DNA of 37,950 nucleotides, taken from positions 1 to 37,950 of the forward strand of contig CALMQM010000097.1 of assembly GCA_937871435.1 (NCBI GenBank). The letters run 5' to 3'. Shown here piece by piece: positions 25,604-37,435 of the stretch; position 1 is the first letter of the stretch, and each line of letters begins with the position of its first letter. This DNA is from an uncultured Bacteroidota bacterium. Its GTDB lineage: Bacteria > Bacteroidota > Bacteroidia > AKYH767-A > 2013-40CM-41-45. Under the pieces are notes generated by a model. The model did not search any database. It worked only from the letters and a program-made list of their open reading frames with translations, and was not told the origin of the DNA. A program made the translations under genes and the position numbers.

Positions 25604-27262
25604 ATGATCAAGAAAATTGCAGGCATTGTTTTTATTTCTGTCATTTCAATTCATGGAATGGCTCAAAAATCCAGATCAGGAGAAGTGCAAAATACTGTTT
25701 TCCCAAAACGTCCGCCTTTGGTGGTTGGAATTGTTGTGGATCAGATGCGCTATGATTATTTATTCCGCTATTGGAATCATTATAGTGATAAAGGATTTAA
25801 ACGATTGATGAACCAGGGTTTCTTATGTAAGAATGCGAATTTTAATTATGTCCCGACGTACACCGCTCCCGGACATGCTTGCATCTACACAGGAACTACA
25901 CCGGCTGTAAATGGAATTGTTTCCAACGACTGGTACGACAGGAAAACAAAGAAGAGTGTTTATTGTGTGAATGATACTACTGAAAAACCTGTAGGTACAA
26001 CTTCCATTTCCGGTAAGATGTCGCCTCGTCAAATGCTCAGCACAACGATGACTGATGAATTGCGACTTGCGACAAATTTTAAATCCCGAGTGATTGGAGT
26101 TTCACTAAAAGACAGAGGCGCGATTCTTCCTGCCGGGCATACAGCAAATGCTGCATACTGGCATGATCCATACAGTAACAATTGGGTGAGTAGTACCTAT
26201 TACATCCAAAACCTGCCGGAATGGGTGAATCAATTTAATTCACGAAAAATTGTTGATTCCCTGCTGATGCAACCCTGGAATACATTGCTTCCAATTTCAG
26301 AATACACCGAAAGTTCCGCGGATGATAATGCCTATGAAGGTTTGTACAAAGGAGAAACCAGACCGGTTTTTCCTCATAATTTACCTGCGATTAAACCGAA
26401 TGATTCAGAATTGATCCGACGGACTCCTTTTGGAAATACGTTTACCCGATTATTTGCAGAAGCTGCTATAGATGGTGAACAACTTGGCATGAAAGGCGAA
26501 ACAGATTTTCTGGCAGTGAGTTTCAGTTCGACGGATTATATCGGACATATGTACGGTATCAACGCGATTGAAACAGAAGATACTTATTTACGTCTTGATC
26601 TGGAACTTGAAAAGTTTTTGAATTTTCTTGATGGAAAATATGGCAAAGAAAATTACCTGCTATTTCTTACTGCTGACCATGGCGCAGCTCACAATCCTGA
26701 ATTCAGTGGTGATCAGAAAATTCCTTCCGGGAATTTAATGAATGATCCAATGAGTGATTCTTTGTCGGGTTATCTTTATAGTTTATTTGGCGACACCAAT
26801 CTTGTATTATCTGCTTCTTCTCACAACATCTATTTGAACAGAGATTTGATTGAAAAGAAAAAACTGAATTTGGAAGAGGTTCAGAATGCCTGTGCCAGAT
26901 TTGCATTGAAATTTTCAGGAGTCGCTGAAGCAATAACTGCTACACAATTATCGAAGAATGTGTGCAGACAAGGGTTGGAGAAATTGGTTCAAAATGGATT
27001 CAATGAAATTCGATCAGCGGATGTATGCATACAACTGCAGCCAGGTTGGTTGGATTGGTACACTAAAACCGGCACATCCCATGGAACCTATTACCATTAT
27101 GATACACATGTTCCGTTGTTATTTTATGGTCAGGGGATCACACAGGGCTCAACCGCACGACCAATTACTATCACTGATATTGCTCCATCAATTTGTACTT
27201 TATTGAACATAGAATCTCCAAGTGGGTGTACCGGTGAACCAATATTGGAAATTTTGAAATAG
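25604..27262 (+). CDS. exported alkaline phosphatase family protein (PafA-like)
   Basis: Signal peptide MIKKIAGIVFISVISIHGMAQ. The mature protein (about 530 aa) belongs to the alkaline phosphatase/phosphodiesterase superfamily. It has a metal Asp in VVDQMRYDY (D46), the nucleophile T87 in YTAPGHACIYTG, STDYIGHMYG, LTADHGAAHNPE and a C-terminal GTSHGTYYHYDTHVPLLFYG with Zn-binding histidines. PafA-type enzymes are broad phosphomonoesterases of Bacteroidota that act in the periplasm in phosphate acquisition. The Thr nucleophile fits PafA/PhoX-like PLPs rather than E. coli PhoA (Ser). It follows the PAP2 gene by 11 bases and is followed at once by an MFS transporter. Confidence 0.92.
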   Translation: MIKKIAGIVFISVISIHGMAQKSRSGEVQNTVFPKRPPLVVGIVVDQMRYDYLFRYWNHYSDKGFKRLMNQGFLCKNANFNYVPTYTAPGHACIYTGTTPAVNGIVSNDWYDRKTKKSVYCVNDTTEKPVGTTSISGKMSPRQMLSTTMTDELRLATNFKSRVIGVSLKDRGAILPAGHTANAAYWHDPYSNNWVSSTYYIQNLPEWVNQFNSRKIVDSLLMQPWNTLLPISEYTESSADDNAYEGLYKGETRPVFPHNLPAIKPNDSELIRRTPFGNTFTRLFAEAAIDGEQLGMKGETDFLAVSFSSTDYIGHMYGINAIETEDTYLRLDLELEKFLNFLDGKYGKENYLLFLTADHGAAHNPEFSGDQKIPSGNLMNDPMSDSLSGYLYSLFGDTNLVLSASSHNIYLNRDLIEKKKLNLEEVQNACARFALKFSGVAEAITATQLSKNVCRQGLEKLVQNGFNEIRSADVCIQLQPGWLDWYTKTGTSHGTYYHYDTHVPLLFYGQGITQGSTARPITITDIAPSICTLLNIESPSGCTGEPILEILK

Positions 27263-28473: not shown

Positions 28474-28633
28474 TGTTCACCCAATACAAAAAGTGTTGAA
28501 AACTCCTGATTCGGAGGAATGTTAAAACATTGGTTTTTAATAGCTTTTTCTTTATTTTTACAGCTGTACCGGAAATGGGGGGTACCCGGATTAATTGTTT
28601 AACCAATCAATCCAAATTCTTAACCTGAGCTTT

Positions 28634-31600
28634 ATGAAACAAGCGAATGTTTACAGATTAAAATTAGTTCTATGTCTCATCCTTTTTTTTCTTATCAGTC
28701 GCAAGGATGTAAAAGCGAGTCACGCGATGGGGGCCGACATTACTTATGAGTATGTTGGACCAAATCAGTACTTAGTTACGATGTCATTCTATCGGGATTG
28801 CAGTGGAATTCCTGCTCCTGCATTTATGGACATCCAACTTAATTCCTCCTGTTTTCCTACTTCAACGGTAAACCTGAATCCTTTGCCGACAAGTCCAACA
28901 CAAATTTCTCCTGTATGCCCAACGGAAGCCTCTACCTGTAACGGTGGTTTGTACACAGGAATTGAAGAATGGATTTACCAAGGGGTTGTAACATTACCCG
29001 GACCATGTGCAGACTGGAGATTCAGCCATGGAGAAAGTGCACGAAATTCTGCTATCACGACTATAACCGGTGCAGGAAGTGATATCCTGTATGTTTATTC
29101 TCAACTCGACAACACCAATGGTTTGGTAAACAATTCTCCGTTGTTCAGTAACAGACCGGTTCCATTTGCATGTGTTGGTCAGCGTTTTTGTTTCAACCAC
29201 GGAGCATTTGATCTGGATGGAGATTCCATCGCGTATCAATTGATCACTCCATTGACGGCACAAGGAACCACAGTTACTTATCTGCCAGGTTACTCAAACA
29301 CTCAACCTGTATTGTCTGCCCCTCCGGTACAATTCAATTCTGTGACCGGAGATATTTGTATGACTCCGACTCAAACAGATGTGACTGTGTTCGCAGTATT
29401 GGTTAATGAGTACAGGAACGGAGTATTGATTGGACAGGTAGAACGTGATATTCAGTTAACGGTAAATAATTGCAATAACTTTTTGCCATTCCTCACTGGA
29501 ATTGACGGAGCCCCTTCATTCAGCAGGACAATTTGTGCAGGTCAGCCATTCAGTTTTTATATCGCGTCAATAGATACGAATTCTGCTGACTCAACTTATA
29601 TCACCTGGGATGGATCTATTCCGGGTGCAAATTTTGTGGTGACAGGACATAAGAGAGATTCTGCGATATTTTCATGGACACCAACGTCAGCAGATATCAG
29701 TTCTACGCCAAAATGTTTTACTGCAACTGTAAGTGATAACCGATGTCCATATCAGGGTATTCAGATCTTTTCCTATTGCTTTACTGTGATAGGAGTTGCT
29801 CCTAATGCGGGAGCCGACCAGACAATTTCATGTAATACGACAACCACTTTGAATGGAACAGCCACAGGTGGTAGTGGTAATTATACATACACGTGGCTGC
29901 CAAGTGGAACGGTCAATCAACAGCTGACAAATGTCGGAGTAGGGACATATTATCTGCATGTTAAAGATAACGTCAACCTGTGTGAGAATACAGATACAGT
30001 TGTGATTTCTCCGGGCGCCGGGGTTCCTGCAGCTGCTTTTTCATTCACGAATAATTGCAGCGGTTCGCCAATTCAATTCACAGACAATTCTGTTGTCGGT
30101 GGTGGAGCGGTCTCACAATGGAATTGGGATTTTGGTGATGCAAATTCCTCTTCTTCTCAGAATCCGACACACCAATACGCTTCGAATGGTACATACGATG
30201 TGACGTTGATTGTGTTCACCGCAACAGGCTGCAGTGATACGATAACTCAGCAGTTGACCGTAAACACAAATATTCCAACAGCTACTTTTAACGCTACCAA
30301 TGTTTGCCAGGGATCAGTAATGAATTTTACGGATGCATCTTCCGGTGGTCCATTTAGTTCATGGTCATGGAATTTTGGTGATCCTGCAAGTGGCAGTAAT
30401 ACATCCGGTTCTCAAAACCCTTCTCATACTTTCTCAACATCAGGTACATTCACTGTAACTTTACAAGTTACGAATTCAGCGGGTTGTAATAATCAGATCC
30501 AAACGGATGTGACAGTTTACCCAAATCCAACTGTCAATGTATTGGATGATCAAATATGTGATGGAGGTCAGACTACTCTTACAGCGCCCAATGGGTTTAG
30601 CACCTATTCATGGAACCCGGGCGGAAATACGCAGTCAATTACTGTCAATCCTACTGTAACAACAACCTACACGCTGACTGTAACAGACAATCATAATTGT
30701 AGTGGAAATCATCCTGTAATTGTAACCGTGAATCCTTTGCCAGTCGCAAATGCCGGATCACCTTCTACTATTTGTCAGGGAACAGCAGCCAATCTAAACG
30801 GTAGTGGTGGTGCTTCCTATGCCTGGAATCCTGGAAACATGACGACACAGGCAGTAAGTGTAACACCTGCTTCAACTACTACTTATACGCTGACAGTTAC
30901 AAGTGCAGCCGGTTGTACAGACAATGACCAGGTAACAGTTACAGTGAATCCAATGCCAACAGTTGATGCGGGAAATGGTATTAATATATGTAAAGGCAGT
31001 ACTGTAAATCTGAATGCTACGGCAGGAGCCGGTAATTATCTCTGGCTGCCCGGAAACCTGAATACATCTTCAATTACGGTTAGTCCTATTGTTACAACTA
31101 CATATACTGTTACAGTGAGTGACGCTATCGGATGTTCAGGAAATGATACAGTAACAGTGATTGTAAATCCAATACCAACAGCGGCATTTTCGAATTCAGG
31201 ACCTGTTTGTCAGGGAAATTCAATCAGCTTTACAGATGGTTCATCTGTTAGCTCTGGCACTGTAGCGAATTGGAATTGGGATTTTGATAACGGACAAACA
31301 TCCGCTGCACAAAATCCTTCTTCTCTATATTCCACTTCTGGTAATTACAATGTCCGTTTGATAGTCACATCCAACGCAGGATGTAAGGACACTACATTGA
31401 ATGCAGTTTTAGTAAATGGTCTTCCTACAGCGGAGGCAGGAAGTGCAGTCGGTATTTGTCCTGGATTTAATGCCACACTTACCGGAAGTGGTGGATCGCA
31501 GTACCTCTGGAATCCGGGTGGTATGACAACATCCAGTATTACTGTATCTCCGGCTTCTACAACATCCTATTCACTTTTGGTGACTGATGCGAATGGTTGT

Positions 31601-33364
31601 CAAAATACAGACGCAGTTACAGTTACTGTGAATCCCGTTCCGGTTGCGAATGCCGGTGTAAATCAGGATATCTGTTTAGGTGAAACAACAACTTTGTTTG
31701 CTTCCGGAGGTGCCACTTATTTATGGACACCGGGAAATGCAGCAACTTCCAACTTTAATGTTACGCCGAACTCAACCACCACTTACAATGTCTTAGCAAC
31801 TAACACCTATGGTTGTGTGGATAATGCACAGGTGACTGTAAATGTGCATGCAATTCCCGTAGCTTCCTTTACAAATTCAGGCGCCGTTTGTCAATTTAAT
31901 AATGTTTCGTTCACAGATCAGTCAAGTGTAAACAACGAAACAATTACTGCCTGGTCATGGGATTTTGGAAATAGTATCAGTGCGAACACTCAAAATCCGG
32001 AAGTGCCATACAATGCTCCTGGCAATTATACGATCAGCCTGGTTGTTACTTCCGCAGCCGGATGTAAGGATACCGTAACACAGGCATTGAATATCTGGGC
32101 AAAACCTGTAGCAGCTGCTTCACACGTAGATGTATGCTTTGGTAATCCGGTGAACTTTGATAATACATCCAGCATCAGTGATGCAACACCATTGGCTTAC
32201 AGTTGGAATTTGGGAGACAATTCTGTTTCTGCAAATGCAACACCAAGCCACAGTTATTCTTCTTATGGTAATTATCAGGCAACTATGGTTGTTACATCAA
32301 CTCATGGTTGCGTAGATTCTGTCAATCGTTCAGTGAATGTATTTGCATTACCGATTGCTGCATTCTCTACAAATACTGTATGTGAAGATGCATCAGCTTC
32401 ATTTGTAGATGGCAGTTCAATTCCTGATGGCAATATCAGTACATGGTATTGGACATTCGGAGATGGTAATACTGGTACGGATCCTTCTCCGAATCATTCT
32501 TATGTGGATGCCGGAAATTATCCGATTCATGTTTTGATTACTTCCAACCATGGCTGCCAGGACAGTACAGACGGTGTTATCCGTGTAATTCCTAAACCGG
32601 TTGTTGATTTCCAGACATTGAATGTATGTTTTGGAAACCCGACACAAATGACGGATTTGTCGTTCCCGATTACAGGTGTCATCACACAATACCAATGGTC
32701 CTTCGGGGATGGACAGACCACTACGGATCAGAATCCGGAACATATGTATAGCGCTCCCGGCTGGTATCAGGTTGGACTTACCGCGACTACTGATAGTGGA
32801 TGTAGTACAACATTACTTCGTCCGAATGCTGTAAATATCTATGCCGGTCCGAATTCTGACTTTACTTCGGATGCTACACATGCAAGTGACATTTATCCGT
32901 TGGTGAATTTTGTAAACGAAACAACCAGTCCTGGTTTTTATTATTGGAATTTTGGTGACGGAACTACTTCCAATGAATATTCCCCGGCCCACCAGTATCC
33001 GGATATTGGAGTCTACGATATTCAATTGGTAACTGTCGATTATAATGGATGTGTAGATACGACAGTAAGAAGAGTTGAAATCAGACCAAGTTCTACCATT
33101 TATATTCCAACAGCATTTACGCCTAATAACGACACCAAAAATGATGTATTTCATGTATATACTTACAATGTCGTACAGCTTCAGGCAGCAATCTATGATC
33201 GTTGGGGATTGAAGATTTACGAATGGGATACTGTGAATGGTGGTTGGGATGGAAAAATCGACGGAAATCCTGTTCAATCAGACACCTATGTTTACCGCGT
33301 TTCAACCGTTGATGTCAATAATAAACGGGATGTTCTGATTGGTCACGTGAGTCTCGTTCGATAA
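28634..33364 (+). CDS. giant PKD/Ig-like repeat surface protein with T9SS C-terminal sorting domain
   Basis: Secreted adhesin-like protein of 1576 aa. A signal peptide (LVLCLILFFLISRK) is followed by a domain starting SHAMGADITYEYVG with LVTMSFYRDCSG, the N-terminal module of many Bacteroidota PKD proteins. From about residue 455 there are eight PKD-type repeats, each with a W-x-W-D/N-F-G-D-like core, interspersed with five Ig-like units of the form YxWxPG...TTTYxLTV...VxVNPxP. The order is PKD2, Ig3, PKD1, Ig2, PKD5. The last 87 residues (from YIPTAFTPNND, with YDRWGLKIYEW and SDTYVYRV) are the gliding-motility-associated C-terminal domain, a type B T9SS signal. The frame opens at a TTG at 28595, but the ATG at 28634 puts the signal peptide at the N-terminus. 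Export through T9SS and cell-surface display are inferred. Confidence 0.93.
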   Translation: MKQANVYRLKLVLCLILFFLISRKDVKASHAMGADITYEYVGPNQYLVTMSFYRDCSGIPAPAFMDIQLNSSCFPTSTVNLNPLPTSPTQISPVCPTEASTCNGGLYTGIEEWIYQGVVTLPGPCADWRFSHGESARNSAITTITGAGSDILYVYSQLDNTNGLVNNSPLFSNRPVPFACVGQRFCFNHGAFDLDGDSIAYQLITPLTAQGTTVTYLPGYSNTQPVLSAPPVQFNSVTGDICMTPTQTDVTVFAVLVNEYRNGVLIGQVERDIQLTVNNCNNFLPFLTGIDGAPSFSRTICAGQPFSFYIASIDTNSADSTYITWDGSIPGANFVVTGHKRDSAIFSWTPTSADISSTPKCFTATVSDNRCPYQGIQIFSYCFTVIGVAPNAGADQTISCNTTTTLNGTATGGSGNYTYTWLPSGTVNQQLTNVGVGTYYLHVKDNVNLCENTDTVVISPGAGVPAAAFSFTNNCSGSPIQFTDNSVVGGGAVSQWNWDFGDANSSSSQNPTHQYASNGTYDVTLIVFTATGCSDTITQQLTVNTNIPTATFNATNVCQGSVMNFTDASSGGPFSSWSWNFGDPASGSNTSGSQNPSHTFSTSGTFTVTLQVTNSAGCNNQIQTDVTVYPNPTVNVLDDQICDGGQTTLTAPNGFSTYSWNPGGNTQSITVNPTVTTTYTLTVTDNHNCSGNHPVIVTVNPLPVANAGSPSTICQGTAANLNGSGGASYAWNPGNMTTQAVSVTPASTTTYTLTVTSAAGCTDNDQVTVTVNPMPTVDAGNGINICKGSTVNLNATAGAGNYLWLPGNLNTSSITVSPIVTTTYTVTVSDAIGCSGNDTVTVIVNPIPTAAFSNSGPVCQGNSISFTDGSSVSSGTVANWNWDFDNGQTSAAQNPSSLYSTSGNYNVRLIVTSNAGCKDTTLNAVLVNGLPTAEAGSAVGICPGFNATLTGSGGSQYLWNPGGMTTSSITVSPASTTSYSLLVTDANGCQNTDAVTVTVNPVPVANAGVNQDICLGETTTLFASGGATYLWTPGNAATSNFNVTPNSTTTYNVLATNTYGCVDNAQVTVNVHAIPVASFTNSGAVCQFNNVSFTDQSSVNNETITAWSWDFGNSISANTQNPEVPYNAPGNYTISLVVTSAAGCKDTVTQALNIWAKPVAAASHVDVCFGNPVNFDNTSSISDATPLAYSWNLGDNSVSANATPSHSYSSYGNYQATMVVTSTHGCVDSVNRSVNVFALPIAAFSTNTVCEDASASFVDGSSIPDGNISTWYWTFGDGNTGTDPSPNHSYVDAGNYPIHVLITSNHGCQDSTDGVIRVIPKPVVDFQTLNVCFGNPTQMTDLSFPITGVITQYQWSFGDGQTTTDQNPEHMYSAPGWYQVGLTATTDSGCSTTLLRPNAVNIYAGPNSDFTSDATHASDIYPLVNFVNETTSPGFYYWNFGDGTTSNEYSPAHQYPDIGVYDIQLVTVDYNGCVDTTVRRVEIRPSSTIYIPTAFTPNNDTKNDVFHVYTYNVVQLQAAIYDRWGLKIYEWDTVNGGWDGKIDGNPVQSDTYVYRVSTVDVNNKRDVLIGHVSLVR

Positions 33365-33569: not shown

Positions 33570-34841
33570 ATGTCAGATCTGAAGAGTAAGCACGACATGG
33601 TGATTGAGATCGTCAATCAAGTCGCATCAATCGCTGCAAAATTAGGTATCGTCCACAATAGTACTGATGATGAAATTTTAGATGGTAGACACATCACCAT
33701 TCGTGGTAAAAAGATGTTGTATTTTGGTTCGTGCGGATATCTTGGTCTTGAGCATGACCCCCGTATTAAAGCCGGTGCTATAGAAGCAGTCAATAAATAT
33801 GGTACCCAATTTTCTTCTTCCAGAGCCTATGTTTCTTCGAGTTACTATCAGCAATCTGAAGAGCTGTTGAAGAAAATGTTTTTTGGAAAACCATTGCTTT
33901 TATTGCAATCGCTGACAGTAGGTCACATGTCTAATATTCCAATTCTTGTTGGGAATGATGATGCTGTTATCATGGATGCGCAAGTTCACGATAGTGTTCA
34001 AACAGCAGTTCAATTATTGCGCAACAGAGACATCCATATTGAGTTGATTCGTCATAATCGTATCGATATGCTTGAGAGCCGAATTAAAGCCCTAAAAGAT
34101 GACTATCGCAAGATTTGGTACATGGCGGATGGTGTCTACTCCATGCAGGGAGATTTTGCTCCGGTAAAAGAACTCTACAAGCTCGCTGATCAATACGAAC
34201 AGCTACATCTGTATCTGGATGACATCCATGGAATGAGTTGGGCGGGACCTAACGGTACAGGGTATGTAACCAGTCAGGGTGAATACCATCCTCGTTTATT
34301 CCTCACAACCGGATTAACAAAAGCTTTTGGTACCTCCGGCGGATTGTTGGTTTATCCGGAAGATCAGAGTTTCAATCTGATTAAAAATACGAGTAAAGCA
34401 TTCATCTTTTCCATCCAAATGCCTCCAATGGTATTAGGAGCTACAGTTGAATCCGCAAAAATTCACCTGAGTAATGAGATTTATTCTTTCCAGGATGAAT
34501 TGAGGTTGAAGATGGAGTATTTTAACAATACGGCTAAAAAATTGGGACTTCCGCTTATTAACGAGACACTTTCTCCAATTGGATTTATTGGAGTAGGGAA
34601 GCCGGATGTCGGTTATAATATGGTAAAGAGAATGATGAATCAGGGGTATTACTTTAACCTGAGTGTATTCCCAAGTGTATCGTATAATAATACCGGTCTG
34701 AGGATTCCAATGAATCGTTTGCACACATATGAAGATATAGACAATATCCTCAATGAAATCGCTACACAATTGCCTCAGGCATTGGAAGACTCCAAATCCA
34801 GCATGTCAGAGATCTACAAGCATTTTAAATTGGTAGCCTGA
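33570..34841 (+). CDS. PLP-dependent alpha-oxoamine synthase-like enzyme (AONS/KBL/SPT/CqsA family)
   Basis: Fold type I PLP enzyme of 423 aa resembling the synthases that condense an amino acid with an acyl-CoA. It shows NFG-like YFGSCGYLGLEHDP (51-64), GTQFSSSRAY (78-87), H140 in DAQVHDSV, D217-D-I-H220 (the usual DDAH/DEAH), and Schiff-base K251 in TTGLTKAFGTSGG. Departures from BioF, Kbl or serine palmitoyltransferase are notable. The usual SGxxAN segment reads LTVGHMSN (115-122), and DDAHGTG reads DDIHGMSW. The reaction and substrates therefore cannot be assigned; sphingolipid synthesis, biotin synthesis and an autoinducer-type ketone are all possible. It stands alone between two terminators, with its own promoter box, facing a response regulator. 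Confidence 0.85.
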   Translation: MSDLKSKHDMVIEIVNQVASIAAKLGIVHNSTDDEILDGRHITIRGKKMLYFGSCGYLGLEHDPRIKAGAIEAVNKYGTQFSSSRAYVSSSYYQQSEELLKKMFFGKPLLLLQSLTVGHMSNIPILVGNDDAVIMDAQVHDSVQTAVQLLRNRDIHIELIRHNRIDMLESRIKALKDDYRKIWYMADGVYSMQGDFAPVKELYKLADQYEQLHLYLDDIHGMSWAGPNGTGYVTSQGEYHPRLFLTTGLTKAFGTSGGLLVYPEDQSFNLIKNTSKAFIFSIQMPPMVLGATVESAKIHLSNEIYSFQDELRLKMEYFNNTAKKLGLPLINETLSPIGFIGVGKPDVGYNMVKRMMNQGYYFNLSVFPSVSYNNTGLRIPMNRLHTYEDIDNILNEIATQLPQALEDSKSSMSEIYKHFKLVA

Positions 34842-34852
34842 TTATTCAGGCT
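34835..34852 (+). terminator. hairpin spanning the stop codon of the PLP gene
   Basis: Perfect 7-bp stem AGCCTGA (34835-34841) and TCAGGCT (34846-34852) with loop TTAT. It includes the TGA stop and lies just before the main terminator. There is no T-tract of its own. Confidence 0.45.
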
Positions 34853-34860
34853 ATGGGTAT

Positions 34861-34891
34861 AAAAAAAGGGTTCGTTGTCGAACCCTTTTTT
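34861..34891. terminator. bidirectional terminator between the PLP gene and the response regulator
   Basis: AAAAAAAGGGTTCG (34861-34874) and CGAACCCTTTTTT (34879-34891) form a GGGTTCG/CGAACCC stem with loop TTGT, with T-tracts on both strands. It can stop transcription from the convergent genes on either side. Confidence 0.9.
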
Positions 34892-34910
34892 GCTTTATAA
34901 TGTGTCAGTA

Positions 34911-35336
34911 TTATGGTTGTTCGCAAAGCTGCCAGAAGTTGTTTAAAATCGAAACCGCAGCAACAAAATTCTCGAATGAAATTGGTTTGATAATGTATCC
35001 GGCTACATTGTAATTGTAGGCTTCAAAACGATCCTTGTCATCGTTGGAAGTAGTCATTACAAACACTGAAATATTGTGGAGTTCTTTATCAGCCCGTAAC
35101 TCTTTCAAAAATTCAAGACCATTCATTTTAGGCATATTAATGTCTAGCAGAATGATTCTTGGTACAGGGAGAATTTTTTCAACTCCATTGGTGCCTCGCA
35201 GAGCATCAAGAGCTTCAACTCCATTGTGTGCAATAAACAGAGGATTGGAAATATTGCTTTTTTTGAATGCTCTCTGAACATTCATGCAATCCACCTCATC
35301 GTCGTCAACCAGCAGTATGTTCACGATTTTTTCCAT
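34911..35336 (-). CDS. single-domain response regulator (CheY/Rcp-like)
   Basis: Stand-alone receiver of 141 aa with no output domain. Acidic pocket D11-D12, phosphoacceptor D65 in ILLDINMPKMNGLEFL, T95/T96 in FVMTTSND and K117 in YIIKPIS. The layout resembles Rcp-type receivers that take phosphate from a kinase lacking its own receiver. Divergent to it, 295 bases away, is such a kinase (35632-37014), so a pair is likely but not proven. A minus-strand TAATTTG at 35399-35405, one base shorter than the -7 consensus, may be its promoter. Confidence 0.93.
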   Translation of the reverse strand: MEKIVNILLVDDDEVDCMNVQRAFKKSNISNPLFIAHNGVEALDALRGTNGVEKILPVPRIILLDINMPKMNGLEFLKELRADKELHNISVFVMTTSNDDKDRFEAYNYNVAGYIIKPISFENFVAAVSILNNFWQLCEQP

Positions 35337-35631
35337 TACATGTTAATTAATACGATTGCCTCTAGTCGAGGTTGCATCTTTCCCAGATAGCTGAGGCACA
35401 AATTACATAAATTCCTGAATTTGGTAAAATAATCCTAAGATTCCCTGTAATATATTGATATGCAGAGCAACAGTAAAAATTGAGAAAAGTCAAAGGCCAT
35501 TTGTCAGCTCCGGAACCCTATTTATTCAATGATAGCGAATGTTCAAAATTTCTTTCAATTTCTTACAGTTCGGTATCCATTGCTTTAAATTAGCGTTACG
35601 ATAGAATCACCAAAATCAAAGGAAATCAAGG
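35337..35631. other. 295-bp divergent control region between response regulator and kinase
   Basis: AT-rich with no coding frame seen. It must hold the promoters of both divergent genes. Only the near-consensus minus-strand box (35399-35405) was recognised. No TAnnTTTG was found for the kinase, although AAGG lies just before its ATG. Confidence 0.4.
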
Positions 35632-37014
35632 ATGAAAAAGATTTTCAGAAGCCTTTTCAGAAACGACTTGTATGAGAGTATTCCATACGATGATCTGATG
35701 TCGCGTCAGCGATTCACATTGTTCAGAATCTTCACATACACAGCTTTCATCGCAAGTATTTCCACAGCGATACAAATACTTACAGCATTTGAAGAAACTA
35801 ATATTCTCAGTTTTGTACTGATGGGTTTAGCTTTCGTGATTCTTGCCACGTTTTTCGCAGTGAAGCATCATTCAAAATTACCAATAGCATACATCGTAAG
35901 TTTGATTACAGGATTTTCTGTTGTCCATATTCAGGCCTACAACGCAGGGGGACTGATGAATACAGGAACCATGTATATATGTGCAATTATCATGACTGCC
36001 TTTATGTTGTTAGGAACAAAGGGCGGCAAATGGTTCACTGTGCTCGGTATCATGAGTGTAATTGTGCTGTTTTATGCATCAGAATTCACCACCTGGACGA
36101 CCTATGATTTATTTAAAAATGATATTCACCTTATCCATCAGGATGCATTGACAACTTTTATTCTCGCTTTATTTTTGGTTGCAGCACAAAGTAATTATCT
36201 ACATAGCGGGAAAAACGTGATCATTGAACGCATCACAGATCAGAAAGATCAGTTGGAAATAAGTAACCAAAAATTACAAGAATATACTCATCACCTTGAG
36301 AAGAAAAACCAGGAGCTGGATAAGTTCGCTTCAATTGTATCTCATGACCTGAAAGCTCCATTGCGGGCAATCGGTAATCTTACAGGATGGATAGAAGAAG
36401 ATGCAGGTGATACATTGATACCTGAAGTAAGAACAAACTTTGATATGATTAAACAAAGAGTAAAAAGAATGGAAGATCTCATTAACGCCATTCTTGATTA
36501 CTCCAGAGCTGATCGCAGGGCAAGTGATGACGTACTTGTAAATAGTCAGGAATTGGTTCAGGAAACGTTTGAGTTCATCGGACAGCCTGAGAACGTGAAA
36601 CTGGAAATTGCGAGTAATATGCCTGAGATGATGACGGATAAAACACGTCTGAGTCAGATTTTTTCAAATCTTATCGGGAACGCGATTAAGTACAATGATA
36701 AAGAACAAATCCGGATTGTGGTTTCCGCCGAAAATCAAACCGATGGTTGGGTGTTTTCGGTGAAAGACAACGGTCCTGGTATTGAACCTCAGTATCACGA
36801 AAAGATTTTTGTCATATTCCAAACCCTGAATCGCAGAGATGATGTGGAAAGTACAGGGGTTGGATTGGCAATCGTAAAGAAAATAATAGAAGACCAGGGT
36901 GGTAAGATTTGGGTAGATTCCGAGCCCGGAAAGGGTGCTGATTTCCGATTCTTCTGGCCACTTGTGAAAAAACAGAAAGATTCTGTACTTATTGCAGCAA
37001 CAATTATGGTGTAA
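35632..37014 (+). CDS. membrane sensor histidine kinase (six TM helices, no receiver)
   Basis: 460 aa. The N-terminal sensor has six hydrophobic segments (about 28-50, 57-77, 83-101, 111-128, 133-149 and 171-189), with a short outer loop near 150-170 and little periplasmic domain. It therefore probably senses a membrane-soluble or membrane-embedded cue. A coiled-coil linker spans about 195-230. The HisKA domain has H238 in FASIVSHDLKAPLRA. The ATPase domain shows the N-box NLIGNAIKYND, G1 VKDNGPGIEP, F-box region IFVIFQTLNR and G2 GVGLAIVKKII. No receiver, HAMP or PAS domain is present. The divergent single-domain regulator is the obvious partner, and a small protein follows on the same strand. 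Confidence 0.93.
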   Translation: MKKIFRSLFRNDLYESIPYDDLMSRQRFTLFRIFTYTAFIASISTAIQILTAFEETNILSFVLMGLAFVILATFFAVKHHSKLPIAYIVSLITGFSVVHIQAYNAGGLMNTGTMYICAIIMTAFMLLGTKGGKWFTVLGIMSVIVLFYASEFTTWTTYDLFKNDIHLIHQDALTTFILALFLVAAQSNYLHSGKNVIIERITDQKDQLEISNQKLQEYTHHLEKKNQELDKFASIVSHDLKAPLRAIGNLTGWIEEDAGDTLIPEVRTNFDMIKQRVKRMEDLINAILDYSRADRRASDDVLVNSQELVQETFEFIGQPENVKLEIASNMPEMMTDKTRLSQIFSNLIGNAIKYNDKEQIRIVVSAENQTDGWVFSVKDNGPGIEPQYHEKIFVIFQTLNRRDDVESTGVGLAIVKKIIEDQGGKIWVDSEPGKGADFRFFWPLVKKQKDSVLIAATIMV

Positions 37015-37087
37015 GGATTCGAAGTGAATTCCAAAACACTTCCTCTGTGTTGAAGTTAAATTGCATGAAGATAATCCAGAAAGGAAC

Positions 37088-37435
37088 ATGCAAAACAACA
37101 AAACACCCCAAAAGGTTAGTGATTCACCGGAACTCAAGGTGATAAATCTTCATCCAAACCATGCACAGATCGAAGTTGAAATAGACAGGCATGTAAAAAG
37201 TATTCAGAGTCTGATTGCCAGATTAACACCTTCCGACAGACAAAAATATTACAATGGTCTTTTGAACCATTTGTTATCAGAACCTGTTCAGGCTCCGCTT
37301 CAGGTGCAAAAGTCAAAACAGAAAAATCAGGATCATGATTATAGCAATCTGACTGAAAATGATCTTCAATTGATCCGCGAAATGTCTGTGCAGATGGAAA
37401 AACTGTACCGGATTTCAGGATTTGATCAGGAATAA
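37088..37435 (+). CDS. small hypothetical protein (115 aa) downstream of the kinase
   Basis: A soluble, mostly helical-looking protein with no signal peptide and no motif I know. The central part (IDRHVKSIQSLIARLTPSDR) and the C-terminus (NDLQLIREMSVQMEKLYRIS) look like amphipathic helices, joined by a K/Q-rich linker. The frame opens at a TTG (37061), but the ATG at 37088, preceded by AAGGAAC, is more likely. It follows the kinase by 73 bases and ends just before a strong terminator, so it may share the kinase transcript. Function unknown. Confidence 0.7.
   Translation: MQNNKTPQKVSDSPELKVINLHPNHAQIEVEIDRHVKSIQSLIARLTPSDRQKYYNGLLNHLLSEPVQAPLQVQKSKQKNQDHDYSNLTENDLQLIREMSVQMEKLYRISGFDQE

Follow-up and report, generated by a model that had tools for sequence, protein, structure and literature searches.

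The window analysed here is a 37,950-nucleotide stretch of DNA (contig CALMQM010000097.1 of assembly GCA_937871435.1) from an uncultured Bacteroidota bacterium, and its subject is a block of genes for an alpha-oxoamine-synthase-like enzyme, a response regulator and a histidine kinase. The enzyme, which has 423 amino acids (aa) and depends on pyridoxal 5'-phosphate (PLP), is encoded on the forward strand at 33570..34841. It is followed on the reverse strand, in convergent orientation, by the gene for a 141-aa single-domain response regulator (34911..35336), from which the gene for the 460-aa histidine kinase (35632..37014, forward strand) diverges. An earlier note, made from the letters of the window, had placed the three genes here, had remarked that they do not form one operon and had suggested that they might be a signalling set like Lqs of Legionella and Cqs of Vibrio; location and arrangement are as it described. 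It overlooked a fourth gene directly 3' of the kinase gene (37061..37435, forward strand), which starts with TTG and encodes a 124-aa protein with no match in Pfam or NCBIfam. This gene is part of the conserved block, the small protein being present 3' of the kinase in 27 of the 27 loci examined from families f1 and f4 and in 0 of 3 loci from f18.

Pfam places the enzyme in Aminotran_1_2 (56 bits, cut-off 19.7). The residues named in the earlier note, K251, D217, H220 and H140, were read correctly and are invariant in an alignment of 27 relatives, as is R378. All five align with E. coli BioF and Kbl and are presumably the PLP lysine, the Asp and His residues and the carboxylate-binding Arg; in this 27-row alignment the enzyme has the residues of an alpha-oxoamine synthase of fold type I. 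Its top match in NCBIfam was PRK07505 (NF005697), with 246 bits below a cut-off of 342. The scores were 170 bits for the bioF model (cut-off 426), 163, 155 and 138 bits for models of serine palmitoyltransferase (SPT; cut-offs 500, 640 and 670) and 156 and 134 bits for the KBL models (cut-offs 460 and 493). The CqsA/LqsA model, PRK07179, was the last of eleven matches, with 74 bits for a cut-off of 428; members from Vibrio, Cupriavidus and Tistrella (one each) scored 655, 581 and 478 bits. The predicted structure of the enzyme had a mean predicted local distance difference test score (pLDDT) of 62 and was too poor for use.

To place the enzyme, we inferred a tree of 56 sequences, comprising 18 of 51 loci in which the enzyme is unfused, 9 of 31 with a second domain fused to it, 17 of the 20 other Bacteroidota members that were retrieved, six CqsA-type and three PRK07505 proteins, E. 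coli BioF and Kbl, and Alb29 of Streptomyces albogriseolus (PDB 8XHA; PMC11906848, available to us in excerpt, as were the other papers cited). The 27 unfused and fused enzymes formed one clade with a support of 100/99, located beside PRK07505 and Alb29, and were parted from BioF, KBL, SPT and CqsA by a branch with a support of 100/100. A tree in which the enzyme and CqsA form a single clade was rejected by the approximately unbiased (AU) test (p-AU 6.3e-6). The exact positions of BioF and 8XHA are unsure because the tool warned of long branches there and of long branches meeting. Judged by sequence, the enzyme represents a clade of its own that groups with none of CqsA, SPT, BioF and KBL; the earlier note had left its grouping to a phylogeny, in which the separation from SPT and BioF stood and an affiliation with CqsA did not. 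PRK07505 and Alb29 are the nearest enzymes both by score and by tree, whereas the three PRK07505 members examined adjoin other genes, the one in Shinella following a response regulator gene. No CqsA above the cut-off was seen in 198 genomes of the class, a search that scored a limited number of candidates per genome and in which 14 control genomes also gave none, so that absence is not established.

The enzyme might instead serve the making of structural lipids of the membrane, as a synthase of sphingoid-base or sulfonolipid type, with the kinase as a sensor of lipid homeostasis. It belongs to the same superfamily as such synthases, a GNAT domain fused to it in relatives could N-acylate the product, and no SPT was found in its own genome with the enzyme as query, the two other close relatives there being a KBL and an unassigned type. 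We nevertheless regard this as unlikely, given SPT scores far below the cut-offs, the fully supported branch that separates the enzyme from SPT and the presence of a true SPT (685 bits, cut-off 640) alongside the enzyme in the related genome G002. A second type of oxoamine synthase was also seen in these genomes (L006 on contig C105 of the own genome, L223, L229, L232 and L237); L223 passes no curated cut-off, and its best score was 318 bits for SPT-CFB (cut-off 640).

The kinase consists of an N-terminal sensor domain (residues 1-206, 35632..36249, forward strand) and a kinase core (36316..36963, forward strand) with HisKA at residues 229-294 and HATPase_c at 336-444 (Pfam). Residues 1-222 were modelled with a mean pLDDT of 78.8 as membrane helices joined by short loops (22-52, 57-76, 80-104, 111-152 and 172-195, the fourth long enough for two spans). 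With a plain hydropathy cut-off, all six spans were seen in relative L066 and five of them in the window kinase. The kinase is thus predicted to cross the membrane with six helices and to expose next to nothing in the periplasm, in agreement with the earlier note. Six residues of the sensor (H99, Y103, G106, G107, G132 and N195) are invariant across 35 sequences, and the sensor is single-copy in its own genome. A second copy of the sensor kinase, located away from the enzyme and interrupted by an in-frame stop, was found in another genome (L095, contig 129 of G032), and open orphan copies are present in others.

The earlier note had raised the alternatives of a CqsS/LqsS-like sensor and of a MASE-type family. 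No Pfam family matched the window sensor above its cut-off, the best weak match among members of the sensor family being MASE11 (PF20969; 14.2 bits for the window sensor, cut-off 27.3; best E among members 7.8e-5), and a match to CqsS or LqsS was likewise not obtained with a shallow profile of four CqsS-type sequences. Structural comparison of the sensor model retrieved AC9 (Z 13.1, root-mean-square deviation 3.8, 183 residues aligned), ImcA (Z 11.4), AC8 (10.7) and Rv1625c (10.5), in alignments of 157-188 residues with 6-11% sequence identity, at Z values near the level at which, as the tool cautions, helical bundles can align without kinship. Partial matches to G-protein-coupled receptors (about 87 residues) ranked below these four, Foldseek alone gave no match at E < 0.001, and no solved chain matched the sensor by sequence. 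In fold, the model resembles ImcA and the anchors with six helices that are found in adenylyl cyclases of class III, unlike which the window sensor is joined to a histidine kinase. The CqsS of V. harveyi can substitute for the anchor of Rv1625c and confers ligand control on the cyclase (PMC4821796). CqsS-like six-helix kinases in Bacteroidetes have already been counted, in a text whose excerpt mentions no synthase (PMC4821796).

To examine the distribution of the two components, we searched a set of 61 related genomes and identified orthologs of the enzyme (E <= 1e-100) in 37 of them; the enzyme was unfused in 34 and joined to a second domain in three. The 206-aa sensor domain was present in exactly the genomes with the unfused enzyme (34/34 versus 0/27, the latter including the three with only a fused enzyme; the tables were compared by eye), so the co-occurrence in related genomes on which the earlier note's proposal hung does hold. 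In the 42 genomes compared from the order, the sensor was found in 32 of 32 genomes with the unfused enzyme and in none of the 10 others. For larger draws, at most 4, 7 or 8 candidates per genome were scored. In a draw of 395 genomes from the class, 67 contained the enzyme (E <= 1e-60), of which 32 were unfused, 33 fused and two, G667 and G729, were short partial frames placed in neither category. Strong sensor matches were obtained in 28 of the 32 genomes with the unfused enzyme versus 1 of the 363 others, the lone exception being G713, which is 78% complete; four weak matches (E ~1e-8) were left uncounted. Nine of 395 genomes drawn from the phylum had the enzyme, unfused in the own genome and G097 and of fused length in seven (one of 648 aa), and the sensor matched in two, namely the own genome and, weakly, one other.

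We also examined the gene order around the unfused enzyme in 51 loci from 49 genomes, a set drawn without G584 and G669. A kinase gene was located within three genes of the enzyme in 35 of the 51 loci, and two loci that end early (G040 and G034) have one nearby by coordinates, for a total of 37. Among the 14 remaining loci, the sequence ends soon past the enzyme in G031, G650 and the first copy in G005, enzyme and kinase lie apart in f7 and f107, only a receiver is near the enzyme in G041, and the second copy in G005 has no signalling neighbour. In f1 and f4 the enzyme gene is usually followed by the receiver gene on the opposite strand and then by the kinase gene; in f18 (G054, G485 and G515) enzyme and kinase are consecutive on the same strand. 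The enzyme-kinase pairs are also co-directional in G746 and G702, where the receiver follows the kinase on that strand, and in G506, where a hybrid kinase adjoins the enzyme. In three f7 loci (G507, G559 and G607) the enzyme adjoins a LytTR-type regulator instead. In G507 and G559, both scanned with Pfam, the regulator is followed by a LytS-like kinase; the layout in G607 is alike.

Four distinct types of membrane sensor were found beside the unfused enzyme. The one beside the second enzyme copy in G003 is clearly related to the window type (E 2.9e-5, probability 74%), and those of G746, G702 and G506 (E 0.0046) and of G097 (E 0.0069) are weakly related to it. The second copy in G003 (L054) is preceded, in the same direction, by genes for a membrane-sensor kinase, a receiver, a hybrid kinase and a NarL-type regulator.

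Conservation of gene order among related genomes might in principle reflect chance or general synteny without any functional link. We consider this barely credible, since the left flank varies between lineages while the block is retained and since co-occurrence holds even where the genes are unlinked. Kinases made up 38 of 280 genes near the unfused enzyme versus 3 of 291 genes farther away in the same loci, in a comparison that favours near genes because the profiles were built from neighbours. The retention of the block next to a changing left flank, together with the common phylogenetic profile of the sensor and the unfused enzyme, argues for a proximity beyond chance, and here the neighbourhood conservation that the earlier note had left to be checked is borne out. 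Among the loci compared, the block is accompanied by no further biosynthetic gene.

The arrangement is reminiscent of CqsA/CqsS of Vibrio, the system for CAI-1, in which an alpha-oxoamine synthase is likewise encoded beside a six-helix membrane histidine kinase; G506, whose enzyme adjoins a hybrid kinase, adds to the likeness. In the Lqs and Cqs systems the receiver is fused to the kinase, or is an LqsR with an output part. The window block differs in that its synthase comes from another branch, its sensor showed no relation in a comparison with a shallow CqsS profile and its receiver is a separate protein in which Pfam recognises Response_reg alone, with D65 located by hand count in the translation, as the earlier note had it. 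The lqs locus of Legionella and jqs of Janthinobacterium resemble the block in uniting synthase, kinase and separate response regulator (PMC3376566, PMC3566124), whereas the window synthase lies outside PRK07179, its receiver lacks an output domain, the block has an extra small gene and there is no counterpart to the hdeD of the Legionella cluster (PMC3376566). That the block is a true but divergent Lqs/Cqs system with an alpha-hydroxyketone product appears very improbable: the kinds of genes and the six-helix kinase are alike and lqsA-lqsS-lqsR clusters occur beyond Vibrio and Legionella (PMC3376566; PMC3566124), yet common descent is already largely refuted by the PRK07179 score, the AU test and the lack of a sensor match. 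The earlier note's proposal is hence well supported as an analogy, namely a signalling set of synthase and kinase, and fails as membership in Lqs/Cqs.

On balance we think it probable that enzyme and kinase are an independently assembled synthase-receptor pair. The enzyme would, from substrates that we infer, produce an alpha-aminoketone, small and probably lipophilic, which the kinase encoded next to it would sense inside the membrane through its six-helix domain. The kinase would then pass phosphate to the single-domain receiver and on to partners encoded outside the block, and the signal may act between cells. By analogy, the block most likely works like Cqs and Lqs, with a synthase that belongs to another branch of the family. 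We found no published report of this set of enzyme, kinase and receiver in open-access text.

Several observations weigh against the pairing. The genes are convergent or divergent in most loci, and enzyme and sensor kinase are unlinked in f7 and f107. No profile relation of the sensor to CqsS/LqsS was detected, only four CqsS-type sequences being compared (hhalign of 35 sequences against this shallow profile: probability 0.06%, E 0.77), and the Z values of the sensor model carry the caution given above. The presence counts come from related genomes and are not independent, and Fisher values ignore the relatedness and should not be taken as probabilities. In a mirror-tree analysis, the partial correlation between enzyme and sensor given the kinase core was 0.22 (p 0.02) and that between enzyme and core given the sensor was 0.59; the enzyme-sensor distances correlate no better than those of enzyme and core or enzyme and receiver, and the co-evolution is therefore not sensor-specific.

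In a further explanation, kinase and receiver regulate the enzyme or the use of its product in response to another cue, such as the state of the membrane, and the lipid or metabolite made by the enzyme is not the ligand. The adjoining genes are mostly transcribed separately, orphan six-helix sensors are common in other proteins (PMC4821796) and what accompanies a fused enzyme is for the most part a PAS kinase or a PAS-AraC regulator, not a six-helix sensor, all of which would fit such control. The receiver, however, has no DNA-binding domain, the sensor is missing where the unfused enzyme is absent (one exception in 363 genomes of the class draw) and the enzyme retains kinases of several sensor types, so that we rate this explanation as possible and rather doubtful.

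Signalling genes also surround the fused enzymes. Among four fused proteins scanned, Pfam identified PF13480 in two, L051 and L118 (the latter also with FemAB_like), and only the enzyme part in L050 and L121, which are of fused length. Within three genes of the enzyme, 30 of the 31 loci have a DUF7793 gene and 29 have a gene for a kinase, a receiver or a PAS-AraC protein, both counts being subject to the same bias of neighbour-built profiles. The signalling genes beside fused enzymes therefore support a signalling role for the whole enzyme clade, in which the GNAT part might acylate the aminoketone. More tentatively, Bacteroidota may have an independently assembled class of oxoamine-synthase signalling of their own, in which aminoketones of unfused enzymes would be sensed by several kinds of six-helix kinase, while DUF7793 proteins, together with PAS kinases or PAS-AraC regulators, would read the N-acylated aminoketones of fused ones. 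The fused enzymes of f28 (L120, L121, L125, L126 and kin) are flanked by RteC and helix-turn-helix genes with MauE and DUF6520 nearby, and L126 also has a 1,775-aa protein that we take to be helicase-like; because of these neighbours, the f28 loci may ride on an integrative element.

The region just before the enzyme (28595-33364) encodes a protein of 1,589 aa that has PKD repeats and a type B sorting domain of the type IX secretion system, and whose cluster is found upstream of the enzyme in close relatives only. A PafA-type alkaline phosphatase (25604-27262; 769 bits, cut-off 650) and a gene for a transporter of the major facilitator superfamily after it are likewise kept upstream in close relatives. 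At about 35540-35631, upstream of the kinase gene, five close relatives share a conserved stretch resembling TTCTTACAnTTnGnAATC, then GCGTA, which is possibly a promoter or a regulator site. No DNA element common to the enzyme and kinase promoters was seen by eye in five relatives.

Little is known in Bacteroidota of synthases paired with receptors for small-molecule signals. If the proposed pairing is true, the combination of an oxoamine synthase with a six-helix kinase would have arisen at least twice, from different branches of the synthase family. It would also predict new aminoketone signals, and with them ligands for orphan six-helix sensors, whose fold would be common to the anchors of adenylyl cyclases.

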